Below, one piece after another: positions 40,475-45,661 of a DNA stretch of 64,000 nucleotides. Every line of letters begins with the position of its first letter. Positions within the stretch are counted from its first letter, which is position 1. The stretch is from Victivallales bacterium (GTDB taxonomy: Bacteria > Verrucomicrobiota > Lentisphaeria > Oligosphaerales > Oligosphaeraceae), in assembly GCA_017617415.1 (NCBI GenBank), contig JAFZWH010000162.1:1-64000 (forward strand), read 5' to 3'. A program made the position numbers and the translations under genes. The notes beneath the pieces were generated by a model. It had not been told where the DNA came from. It did not search any database and worked only from the letters and a program-made list of their open reading frames with translations.

Positions 40475-41296
40475 TTAGATATTCGCCCAGCCCCACTGAC
40501 TGCGCGGGAACCAGATGTAGTCGTTGTCCTGCTTGCGGTAGCAGTTGAAGCGCGTGTCACGCTCGCTGGCGTCAATCGGTGCCACATGACCATCGCCGAA
40601 GGACATGTTGAGCTTGTTGTTGTGGCGGAAGAAGCCAACCCAGGTCGTACCGGCGCGAATGATGTCCGGATGGATGAACTGGTTACCCGTCCAACCATTG
40701 TTTTCCATCGTGCCGTCCATGTAGCAAAGATAGAGCGCGGGCTTCGGGATGAGTCCCCACTTCTTCCAGTCGGCGTCCACGTCCCAGTGGTTGTTGTTCA
40801 GCGGGAAGCCATTCTCCCACTTCGCCTTGCCGGAACTGGTCCAGTGACCATGGGAATACCCGCAGCAGACATTGGCGACATAACCGAGGTTACCCCACAG
40901 ACGCTGTTCGGCGCGATGGGACGGGCACTGCATCAGCTTGTGCGCCGGAGTGGCGCGCTGGCGCTGTTCGGGCAGACGGGTGTCCCAGCAGGGATCCTGC
41001 CTCTGCCAGTCGGCCTCGGTAATGGGACCGGCGGGCAGACTGTAGTTGGCAGTGAACCACCAGTAACGCACGAGGCTACCATTTACGGTATAGTCGGCGC
41101 GCACGGGCGGGCTATAGCCGTCCGAGTCATCCGCATACAGGATGGCCCCCAAAATGATGGACTTCAGATTGCTGGTGCATTGGGTAGCACGGGCTTTTTC
41201 GCGAGCCTTGGAAAGCGCTGGCAGGAGCATGGAGGCCAAGATGGCGATGATGGCAATCACCACCAGCAGTTCAATCAGAGTGAAAGATTTTTTCAT
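40475..41296 (-). CDS. H-X9-DG pseudopilin 1 of the array
   Basis: 273 residues with [20 protein letters not shown], Glu at +5 and [20 protein letters not shown]. The H-X9-DG motif is [15 protein letters not shown] near residue 235. The middle is Trp-rich ([29 protein letters not shown]) and differs from the other four array members, which share a common body. It is only 60 bp downstream of the next pseudopilin, has no good promoter of its own and ends with a strong terminator, so it is probably the second cistron of a two-gene unit. Confidence 0.92.
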
Positions 41297-41356
41297 GGTA
41301 GTTTATAGGAAAGCAACTGGTATTGTTTGGAGAAAGTCACTTCAACAAGCACTATC

Positions 41357-42235
41357 TTAGTATTCGTCGTGGTACATCACCAGCTTTTCGTCTTTGTCGG
41401 TTTCCGAGGGTTTCCAGAAGGGCACCCAGATGTTGTTACGCATGCTCCAGCCGACGAAGTCCGCATGGTGCTGGGTATAGGAGAGTGTCTCCACATGCCC
41501 GTCCGCCATCAGGAAATTGCTCTTGGCGGCATGCGGGGCGTGGACGGAGAAGTAGCAGTAGGCGTGGCGGTAGGTAGGCCAGATATTACCATGCTGGATC
41601 ATGAAGGAATGGCCGCCATTGATTTGGCTGAGCTCATCGGGATCGGCTACCGAACCCAGAGGCGTGGAGTCGGCGATGAAAATACGATGGGAGAGCCGCC
41701 CGCCAAACATCTGAACATCGGAATCCTTCACGCCATGCGGACGAATGTCCCAAGAATCTGCGGAGGAAGTCGGTCCGACCATGCGCTTGCCCCAGGCGGT
41801 GAAGCTGAGGCCGTAGGAGAAGTTGCGCAAATAGGTGTAGTTCTCGACATTGCTCGCCACCCGGTCGTCATCCCAACCGCACATCTCCACCAGCGGAGCA
41901 AAACGTCCACTGACCGACGGGCAAGTCATGGCCTTACCAGCAGTGCCGTAGAGGCGGTTCAGGAAAAGCGGCCAAGGCGTTTTGGAGTAGCCGTTATTGA
42001 TGGAGCGAGTCACCCCGCCCTTCTCCGGGAATTGCATCCACGCGCTCAGGAAATAGTTATCGGAGTCTGTCGAGTAAATGGCGTTCATCAGACCGATCTG
42101 CTTCAGATTGCTCACACAGGAGACAGACTTGGCCTTCTCGCGCGCCTTGGAAAGGGCAGGCAGAAGCATGGAAGCCAGGATGGCGATGATCGCGATGACG
42201 ACCAAGAGCTCAATAAGAGTGAATGCCTTTTTCAT
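41357..42235 (-). CDS. H-X9-DG pseudopilin 2 of the array
   Basis: 292 residues. [20 protein letters not shown] has Ala rather than Gly before the cleavage site. H-X9-DG motif: [20 protein letters not shown]. The body shares [26 protein letters not shown] and [16 protein letters not shown] with members 3-5, showing common descent. It has its own promoter at 42290-42318 and no obvious terminator before member 1. Confidence 0.93.
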
Positions 42236-42289
42236 GGTTGAAGTTAATCCTATGAAGTTTGGGGAATTTGGGAAAGTTTTATATATATA

Positions 42290-42318
42290 ATTATAAGTAA
42301 AAAAAGCTTAAATTTCAA
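42290..42318 (-). promoter_or_regulatory. Sigma70-type promoter of pseudopilin 2
   Basis: -35 TTGAAA (42313-42318), 17-bp spacer, -10 TATAAT (42290-42295), about 48 nt of leader before the ATG. Same -35, spacing and -10 as the promoter at 43630-43658. Confidence 0.7.
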
Positions 42319-42369
42319 GTCCCGGTAGTATAATCGGGTTATAATATTGAGGCAATTTTAAAGAGAATG

Positions 42370-42468
42370 GCTTTGTTCCCCAACAGGGTACCTAATCAAG
42401 GCTTTTCAGCCGCGAAGCGGCGATTCCGCCGCTTCGCGGCTATTAAGATACCCTCTTGGGAACAAAGC
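42370..42468. repeat. Nested long palindrome
   Basis: Outer arms GCTTTGTTCCC (42370-42380)/GGGAACAAAGC (42458-42468), a middle AGGGTA/TACCCT pair, and an inner perfect 15-bp stem AGCCGCGAAGCGGCG (42408-42422)/CGCCGCTTCGCGGCT (42427-42441) with a 4-nt loop. The three levels nest in one extended hairpin. Function unknown. Confidence 0.85.
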
Positions 42469-42627
42469 GATTCGTTTTACGCCGACCTCGCTGCCATGGG
42501 ACGCCTGAGACATTTGGGATGTTCGGGACACTTTCTCGTCTTGCCTTTCCGTTTGTCCCAGATGTCCCAATCGTCCCAGATGTCCCATTTGCCCCTCTTC
42601 CGGCAAGTTAACGATAGAATTCCCCAT

Positions 42628-42665
42628 AAAAAACAACTGCCGCAGACTCATGTCCACGGCAGTTG
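42628..42665 (-). terminator. Terminator of pseudopilin 3
   Basis: Stem CAACTGCCG (42634-42642)/CGGCAGTTG (42657-42665), 14-nt loop, followed on the minus strand by a six-T run (42633-42628). Confidence 0.85.
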
Positions 42666-42710
42666 GCAGATTATGCTTCTATGGGATACTTTCCCTCGAT
42701 GAAGGGCAAG

Positions 42711-43658: not shown

Positions 43659-43668
43659 GTATGGACAC

Positions 43669-43712
43669 AAAAAACCCCCGAAAAACCAAACTTACCTGTG
43701 GTCTTTCGGGGG
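43669..43712 (-). terminator. Terminator of pseudopilin 4
   Basis: Stem CCCCCGAAA (43675-43683)/TTTCGGGGG (43704-43712), followed on the minus strand by six T (43674-43669). It lies only 11 bp upstream of the -35 of the next promoter. Confidence 0.85.
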
Positions 43713-43737
43713 AATATATATCCCGTATGTGCAAAAA

Positions 43738-44613
43738 CTAGTCGCTCGCTCCAATCATGATTGGAATCGGCTCGGTGCCCCAGGTCTTCCATGCCGGGCG
43801 AACTTTGCAACGCATCCAGCTGTAGCCAGTCACACTCGGATGGAACTGTTCATAGGCTAGCGTCTCCACATGCCCGTCCGCCATCAGGAAGTTGGCCTTG
43901 CCGGCATGGCGGATGTTGGTTGAGAAGTAGCCCGCGCCATTGACATGGCCAGGATAGACATTGCCGAACTGAACCATGTAGGCTTGACCGCCATTGAGCA
44001 GGGACTGCTGGTCGGCGGGAACCGAGTCAATCGGCGTGGAATCGGTGATGAAGATGAGGTTGGAGAGACGGCCACCATACATCAGGATGTTCGCCTCGGT
44101 ATTGGCGCTGTCATTGTTTTCGTACCAGTCGGAGTTGGAGTTGTTCGGATTGTGCAGCTGACGCTTGCCGAAGGCATTGAAGAAAATGCCATAGGAAGCA
44201 TTGCGCGCATATTGCTGCACATTAATGTAGGTGATTCCCTCGCTCAATGGGCGAGAGAAGACATACGCGAGGGGATTGTACTTGCCGGAGACCTGCGGGC
44301 AGGTCATCGCCTTCGCGCCCGTTCCGTAGAGTTCGTGAAGCACCAGTGGCCATGGGCACTGAGAGTAGGCGTTGTAGGAATTGAAGTACTGCTGCGGGCA
44401 GTTGACCAACTGCATGTAGGTAGATAAATACATGCCGTTGGAGTCCTGCATGTAGATGGCATTCATGAGGCCAATCTGCTTCATGTTGCTGGTGCAGGCG
44501 ATGGTTCGGGCCTTCTCGCGCGCTTTGGAAAGGGCTGGCAGAAGCATGGAGGCCAGAATGGCGATGATCGCGATCACCACCAAGAGCTCAATCAAGGTAA
44601 ATGACTTTTTCAT
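43738..44613 (-). CDS. H-X9-DG pseudopilin 4 of the array
   Basis: 291 residues from [13 protein letters not shown]; an upstream in-frame extension lies over the promoter and is rejected. H-X9-DG motif: [20 protein letters not shown]. Shares [26 protein letters not shown] and [19 protein letters not shown] with its neighbours, but its central region ([20 protein letters not shown]) differs from theirs. Own promoter (44657-44685) and terminator. Confidence 0.93.
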
Positions 44614-44656
44614 GGCGTATTCAGAGTTTAGAAGTGAATTAAAAAACTTTTTTATA

Positions 44657-44685
44657 ATTATAGGAAAAAAAGGATAATTTTTAAA
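44657..44685 (-). promoter_or_regulatory. Sigma70-type promoter of pseudopilin 4
   Basis: -35 TTTAAA (44680-44685), 17-bp spacer, -10 TATAAT (44657-44662), leader of about 40 nt. Confidence 0.62.
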
Positions 44686-44705
44686 GTCATGTAACCACAT
44701 TACAC

Positions 44706-44736
44706 AAAAAAACCGCCCCAAATAATCGGGGCGGTT
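44706..44736 (-). terminator. Terminator of pseudopilin 5
   Basis: Stem AACCGCCCC (44711-44719)/GGGGCGGTT (44728-44736), 8-nt loop, followed on the minus strand by a T-run. Confidence 0.87.
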
Positions 44737-44773
44737 AGCAGGGCATCAGACAAACAGTCCGAAAAATCCTGTT

Positions 44774-45661
44774 TTAATCTCTAAGCACGTGCATGGTGAG
44801 CTTAGCATCGTCCTCGCCGGAATCTTGGTTCCAGAAAGGACGGACCTTGCAACGGCTCCAGCTCGACCCCGTGACACTGGGATGGAACTGATTGTAGGCG
44901 AGGTTCTCCACATGCCCATCGCCCATCAGGAAGTTCGCCTTGCCGGCATGGCGAACATTCGTGGTGAAATAACCGGGCTGGGTCACCCAGCCGGGATATA
45001 CCTGGCCAATCTGCACCATGTGCGCATGGCCGCCATTGAGATATCCCTTGATCGTGGAGTCGCCCACGGAGTCGATTGGCGTGGAGTCAGTGATGAAAAT
45101 CAGGTTGGACAAGCGGGCACCCCAAGCCTCCAGGTCGGAGAGTTTGACGCCAGCGGGATGGCGATCCCACCAGCCACCAGAGCCAGCGGCATGAGGCTTC
45201 ATGTATTTGCCCCAGGTATTGAAATAGATGCCGTAGGAGACGTTCCGAGTATACTCATTGTTTTGGGTATCGCGGAAACTCGCGAACTGCTGATTGTCGT
45301 TCATGTTGAAGACCTCGGTAAGCGGATGGAACCGTCCAGTAACCGACGGGCACATCAGAGCTTTCGCGCCTGTGCCATACAGCTGATTCAGGAACAACGG
45401 CCATGGGCAACGCGATTGGCTAGTCGCATTGTAGCTGATATTGGGAGAATTCAGCCAGAAGTTGAAGACGGTGATGGAATAGCCGTCAGACTCCTGGATA
45501 TAGATGGCATTCATCAGGCCGATTTGCTTCATGTTGCTGGTGCAGGAGACGGTTTTGGCCTTCTCACGTGCCTTGGAGAGCGCGGGCAGGAGCATTGAGG
45601 CCAGGATGGCGATGATCGCGATCACCACCAGCAATTCAATGAGGGTGAAGGTTTTTTTCAT
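44774..45661 (-). CDS. H-X9-DG pseudopilin 5 of the array
   Basis: 295 residues from [13 protein letters not shown]; the upstream in-frame extension overlaps the promoter. H-X9-DG motif: [20 protein letters not shown]. Closest to member 3: both have [18 protein letters not shown] and RNVSYGI-FN-(A/T)-(F/W)-GKY. First gene of the array on the minus strand, downstream of the secreted GH-like gene at 45810-47828 but with its own promoter. Confidence 0.93.

Follow-up and report, generated by a model that had tools for sequence, protein, structure and literature searches.

Old, reshuffled pseudopilin genes in tandem beside type II secretion genes of a rumen Victivallales bacterium

Why does a rumen bacterium keep five pseudopilin genes in tandem next to genes for a secretion machine, and is such an array growing and diversifying? 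The question is raised by a 64,000-nucleotide stretch of DNA (the window; positions 1 to 64,000 of contig JAFZWH010000162.1, contig C76 in our numbering) of a Victivallales genome, G000, of 3.2 Mb in 176 contigs and 91% completeness. Five intact minus-strand open reading frames in tandem, m1 to m5, fill positions 40475-45661, which the original prediction described as five H-X9-DG pseudopilins in an expanding array that might supply an appendage with swappable glycan-binding tips. The closest named relatives of G000, both Victivallales, are metagenome-assembled genomes (MAGs) from goat abomasum (G003) and sheep rumen (G001), and a search for related loci returned three close ones, all in Victivallales MAGs from goat or sheep rumen or abomasum (G001, G003), plus three distant loci; the organism is a rumen Victivallales bacterium. 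The pseudopilin family itself was already known, and we know of no function for DUF1559 proteins; a literature search returned almost nothing on DUF1559 and no link between pseudopilins and Lentisphaeria beyond passing mentions. The genus comparison comprised four genomes, G000 to G003, all draft assemblies broken at repeats. With moderate confidence, we read the array as four old, reshuffled, promoter-driven genes (m2-m5) beside a separate one (m1), with products that would be alternative minor pseudopilins of the adjoining type II secretion machine. The five genes are:

44774-45661, minus strand: m5, a DUF1559/H-X9-DG pseudopilin of 295 aa, with orthologues on G003:C88 (84% over the body) and, as a partial gene, on G001:C118 (84%)
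43738-44613, minus strand: m4, a DUF1559/H-X9-DG pseudopilin of 291 aa, with an orthologue on G001:C338 (80%)
42711-43580, minus strand: m3, a DUF1559/H-X9-DG pseudopilin of 289 aa, with an orthologue on G001:C118 (81%)
41357-42235, minus strand: m2, a DUF1559/H-X9-DG pseudopilin of 292 aa, the fastest evolving
40475-41296, minus strand: m1, a separate conserved DUF1559 pseudopilin of 273 aa

The DUF1559 model PF07596 exceeds its curated cut-off in all five products (27.9-35.5 bits vs 23.3), as does TIGR02532, the prepilin N-terminal domain (21.8-30.9 bits vs a cut-off of 16.3); for the N_methyl motif, m1, m2, and m4 clear the cut-off and m3 and m5 fall slightly short of it (20.5 and 20.4 vs 21.2). 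Against TIGR04294 (H-X9-DG-CTERM; cut-off 19 bits), m2-m5 score 24.4-30.6 and m1 scores 18.1; in the m2 orthologues of G001 and G003, the strict motif is lost and reads H-X9-DA. The genes m2-m5 form one clade with bodies 41-62% identical, and m1 is 30-35% identical to the other four over its full length, mostly owing to the N-terminal helix, while in body searches it groups with another G000 pseudopilin (on C26, 34%) and not with m2-m5. The set is best described as four genes (m2-m5) plus one (m1) that belongs elsewhere. The predicted tandem pseudopilins were confirmed as five intact genes at exactly that span, with a correction for m1, which lies outside the m2-m5 clade and is a separate conserved pseudopilin without its own promoter here, so that five equal members are not supported. 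The common body attributed to members 2-5 is real; the blocks quoted for it vary among members, one of them being confined to m3 and m4 and m2 being the outlier. Like other DUF1559/TIGR04294 prepilin-like proteins, these combine a prepilin helix, a DUF1559 body, and H-X9-DG near the C-terminus and belong to a family with tens of copies per genome, and they differ from them in that four members here are promoter-driven units whose order has changed between species, in the slightly sub-threshold TIGR04294 score of m1, and in the altered motif of the m2 orthologues.

Origin by tandem duplication, as originally proposed, is accepted, and the age of the duplications speaks against an array that is still expanding. 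Body identity is 69-84% between orthologues and 41-62% between paralogues, which places the duplications before the species compared, and orthologue dN/dS values of 0.05-0.22 overall, and of 0.14-0.22 for the orthologues at 69-84% identity, indicate purifying selection. Together with interspecies differences in order, number, and place, these values argue for old, reshuffled paralogues: m2-m5 are best read as ancient copies with occasional short exchange, neither expanding nor diversifying in the centre. A check for gene conversion found one short supported tract, between m3 and m4 of G000 at codons 230-241: the two genes agree at 29 consecutive variable sites, where permutation gives a mean of 7.4 (P = 2e-4). 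Across codons 226-240, m3 and m4 share 98% nucleotide identity vs 78% between m4 and its orthologue, and the m4 of G001 differs within the tract region. The tract sits near the H-X9-DG motif, in a conserved C-terminal block, away from the variable centre.

An array in active expansion or antigen switching, with recent duplication or silent-cassette conversion as in Neisseria pilE/pilS, would draw on the tandem layout, the m3/m4 tract, and the interspecies differences in order and number. We consider it highly improbable, because the duplications predate the species, all copies are intact, m2-m5 have promoters, no partial silent cassette is present, and the clear tract avoids the variable centre. 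The locus resembles pilE/pilS in its pilin-type paralogues, conserved 5' part, and short conversion tract; unlike pilE/pilS, it has no silent promoterless cassettes, all copies are full length, there is no single expression locus, and conversion is not aimed at the variable part. Taken singly, recent expansion was rejected on the age of the duplications, diversifying selection on the centre on the purifying selection among orthologues, and pilE/pilS-like switching on the intact, promoter-bearing (m2-m5) copies and the position of the tract.

The genes that flank the array allow its arrangement to be compared between species:

35287-37605, plus strand: GspD-type secretin (Secretin, Secretin_N, GspD N0)
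37608-39263, plus strand: GspE-type assembly ATPase (T2SSE, MshEN), 94-97% conserved in the genus
39320-40363, plus strand: NAD-dependent sugar epimerase between gspE and m1, a synteny anchor in four genomes
45810-47864, minus strand: CBM4_9-bearing secreted protein and probable glycosidase, encoded upstream of the array
48040-49134, plus strand: GH130 glycoside phosphorylase, in divergent orientation to the CBM4_9 gene

In 4/4 genomes of the genus, m1 adjoins the epimerase gene and gspE (89-95% identical), and it is 95% identical to the m1 of G001 over the body. The m1 genes of G002 and G003 stand by themselves opposite a different CBM-like gene, each behind a promoter site of its own (TTGATA-16-TATAAT and TTGAAA-17-TATAAT, respectively). 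By contrast, m1 is promoterless in G000 and G001, where the m2-m5 block lies between it and the former upstream genes and 60 and 28 bases, respectively, separate it from m2. Because GspE of G000 is 97, 95, and 94% identical to that of G001, G003, and G002, this distribution suggests that the block-free arrangement is ancestral and that the m2-m5 block arrived later. Counted from the CBM4_9 gene, the order is m5-m4-m3-m2-m1 in G000 and m4-(m5)-m3-m2-m1 in G001, the latter bridged over a contig break inside m5, with an m5 leader (80% identical) at the end of C338 backing the bridge. In G003, m2 and a truncated pseudopilin lie beside the GH130-CBM4_9 genes, m5 is on a separate contig with an oxidoreductase gene as its neighbour, and m1 is elsewhere. 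Variation among related genomes, which the original prediction had expected, is therefore present in order, number, and place; array size does vary, and the differences are those of old genes that have moved rather than of growth. The truncated pseudopilin of G003 (L096:10723-10887, on C83) begins with residues (MKKSS) like those of G001 m1 and continues like m2-m5, and it may be a chimera that arose within the conserved 5' end.

Promoter-like sites are about threefold in excess over shuffled sequence (17 vs 5.4 +/- 2.2). The best site ends 43-58 nucleotides before the ATG, with 9-11/12 matches, in every array gene scored in three species (m2-m5 of G000; m2, m3, m4, and the gene after m4 of G001; m2 and m5 of G003), and the m2 site is kept in G001, where the upstream region is 84% identical. 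Strong hairpins with U-tracts lie 3' of m5, m4, m3, and m1, with minimum free energies between -20 and -26 kcal/mol and z scores of roughly -4.9 to -6.6. The predicted signals of G000 are:

45720-45751, minus strand: m5 promoter-like site, TTGTTT-17-TATAAT, 9/12, with the -10 end 58 nucleotides before the ATG
44711-44736, minus strand: terminator after m5, -20.4 kcal/mol, z -4.9
44657-44684, minus strand: m4 promoter-like site, TTAAAA-16-TATAAT, 10/12
43673-43713, minus strand: terminator after m4, a long-loop hairpin with a U-tract, -23.8 kcal/mol, z -5.0
43630-43658, minus strand: m3 promoter-like site, TTGAAA-17-TATAAT, 11/12
42634-42665, minus strand: terminator after m3, -24.3 kcal/mol, z -6.6
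42290-42318, minus strand: m2 promoter-like site, presumably serving m1 too, TTGAAA-17-TATAAT, 11/12
40412-40448, minus strand: terminator after m1, at the end of the m2-m1 pair, -25.7 kcal/mol, z -4.9

A sequence scan of the 60 bases separating m2 and m1 found neither promoter nor terminator, and the layout of promoters and hairpins therefore predicts three single-gene units (m5, m4, and m3) and one m2-m1 pair. The statement that most members have a private promoter and terminator applies to m3-m5, which have both; m2 has a promoter without a terminator, and m1 has no promoter. A similar hairpin also trails the m4 of G001, although m4 stands elsewhere there, and thus the terminator travels with its gene. 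The long gap between m3 and m2 (42236-42710) contains, besides a run of TGTCCCA-type repeats like those near m1 in G001, a G+C-rich palindrome at about 42411-42444 (AGCCGCGAAGCGGCG...CGCCGCTTCGCGGCT).

What machine would these products serve? Beyond the gspD and gspE genes next to the array, G000 encodes a GspF-type platform protein together with a GspG-type pseudopilin (C43) and a single Peptidase_A24 (prepilin peptidase) gene that we could find (C104, 316 aa), and from these associations the simplest reading is that m1-m5 are minor pseudopilins of that machine. Their products would be inserted via the N-terminal helix, processed by the single peptidase, and incorporated as alternative minor subunits into a GspG-based pseudopilus built by GspE, GspF, and GspD, where the divergent globular domains may adapt the machine to different glycan-degrading enzymes for export or, with lower probability, be displayed outside the cell. 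About 170 bases at the start of each gene are near-identical, and these starts, with the repeated promoters, may allow homologous recombination to move whole units and to convert short tracts. Known type II pseudopilins (major GspG; minor GspH, GspI, GspJ, and GspK) share with m1-m5 the prepilin helix (a profile match to solved GspG), the proximity of gspD and gspE, and a genome with one prepilin peptidase and a GspG-GspF pair. They differ in having a smaller globular domain, four minor types as opposed to tens of alternatives from scattered genes, and glycine at position -1; moreover, no GspH-K similarity is detectable in m1-m5 past the helix, and no GspH, GspI, or GspJ model is over its curated cut-off in them, with sub-threshold helix matches only.

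Several points weigh against this assignment. The globular domain has neither a solved relative nor a usable model: a profile search of solved structures (PDB) returned pilins and GspG as relatives over the N-terminal helix only, and a prediction for m5 from 13 sequences was too poor to use (pLDDT 39, pTM 0.33). The machine could instead be that of a type IV pilus, for which G000 has genes on C176, with pilus ATPases and a PilC-type platform protein. Cleavage, assembly, and secretion of m1-m5 are predicted, and the promoters and terminators are consensus matches (sigma70-like). Within a genus sample of only four genomes, the m4/m5 order of G001 relies on a join over a contig break, and no close m2-m5 were found in G002, the assembly of which is 85% complete.

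The cleavage site departs from the textbook pattern. Immediately before F+1, 39 of 58 copies have Ser; the residue is Thr in nine, Asn in four, Ala and His in two each, and Gly and Val in one each; m1-m5 have Ser, Thr, or Ala there and so lack the glycine of class III prepilins (GFxxxE), and F+1 and E+5 are invariant in the alignment. The GspG-type major pseudopilin of G000 (L168:1000-1425) has Ser at -1. In GspG proteins more widely, glycine occupies -1 in 5/68 genomes of the class (Pro 14, Ser 13, Arg 8, others) vs 20/22 genomes from other classes of the phylum (Fisher P = 2e-13, a value that overstates independence because the species are related). A change of Gly-1 to Ser blocks pilin processing in Neisseria gonorrhoeae, and this, together with the mostly non-glycine residues of the class, suggests that its prepilin peptidase probably has another specificity. 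The site seems shifted rather than lost, since F+1 and E+5 stay and the GspG-type protein of the same genome shares the non-glycine residue. These retained features also argue against m1-m5 being membrane-anchored periplasmic or outer proteins, with a possibly uncleaved pilin-like helix as anchor only, a reading that the absence of -1 glycine from 57/58 copies and the restriction of pilin resemblance to the N-terminal helix would favour and that we regard as extremely unlikely. If the sites are cut, the textbook prepilin-processing rule would fail in a whole bacterial class, and its -1 variants are natural material for studies of peptidase specificity.

How widely the family extends was examined with a five-member profile, which gave 69 matches in G000. 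Of these, 66 were taken as pseudopilins, and 31 of the 66 fall into 11 tandem clusters, m1-m5 being the largest. The closest relative within tandem clusters is usually the neighbour, which identifies local duplication as the general mode. A four-gene pseudopilin cluster of a second kind, with divergent helices, occurs at C45:9352-11805. Tens of DUF1559 copies per genome occur both in this bacterium and in Rhodopirellula; R. baltica has 74 DUF1559 genes, some of which respond to salt, cold, or heat shock with altered expression (PMC2754498). These numbers, the tandem clusters, and the stress response would suit an ordinary lineage-specific expansion in which partly redundant pseudopilins are retained for dosage or stress response and none has a specific partner of its own. 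That explanation is doubtful, as m2-m5 each keep their identity across species with constrained bodies 40-60% apart, which pure dosage does not predict.

The surroundings of the pseudopilins are consistent with a link to glycans. A glycosidase neighbourhood is supported, in that the GH130 and CBM4_9 genes adjoin the array; array members lie beside the CBM4_9 homologue in G001 and G003 and beside the GH130 homologue in G003. Six of 14 sugar-sensing Peripla_BP_3 regulators, on C163, C135, C42, C111, C45, and C29 of G000, have a pseudopilin at most 1 kb away (p0 = 0.039, P = 8e-6; a post hoc test prompted by the neighbour scan). In that Pfam scan, GntR and Peripla_BP_3 were each found in 6/63 neighbours and were not among the families found in at least two controls (distant genes of the same loci; 25 families listed). 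AraC regulators near pseudopilins numbered 2/10, which is not significant. Given the glycosidase neighbours and the six nearby sugar-sensing regulators, a glycan-linked role of the pseudopilins is plausible.

The same surroundings, the separate promoters, and the variable centre within a conserved frame would also fit the idea of the original prediction, a pilus on the cell surface built from alternative adhesins that are expressed in varying combinations and bind different glycans through their variable domains. We judge such a pilus unlikely: domain profile searches detected no lectin or carbohydrate-binding domain in the pilins, orthologues show no sign of diversifying selection, and the machine genes next to the array are those of GspE and a GspD secretin; swappable tips for glycan binding are a conjecture. 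Returning to minor pseudopilins of a type II machine, we suggest only tentatively that the changed prepilin site of this class and the tens of individually promoted pseudopilins linked to sugar sensors and glycosidases fit one machine with substrate-matched subunits, the cassettes of which are reshuffled between species. The locus offers a compact test case, with a few separately controlled, conserved yet distinct pseudopilins beside a likely machine and glycosidase genes.

Elsewhere in the window, another pseudopilin (helix near 2541-2741) adjoins an AraC-type regulator (3129-4076) within positions 1980-4076, and a large RHS-repeat protein of 1496 aa is encoded at 19450-23940.

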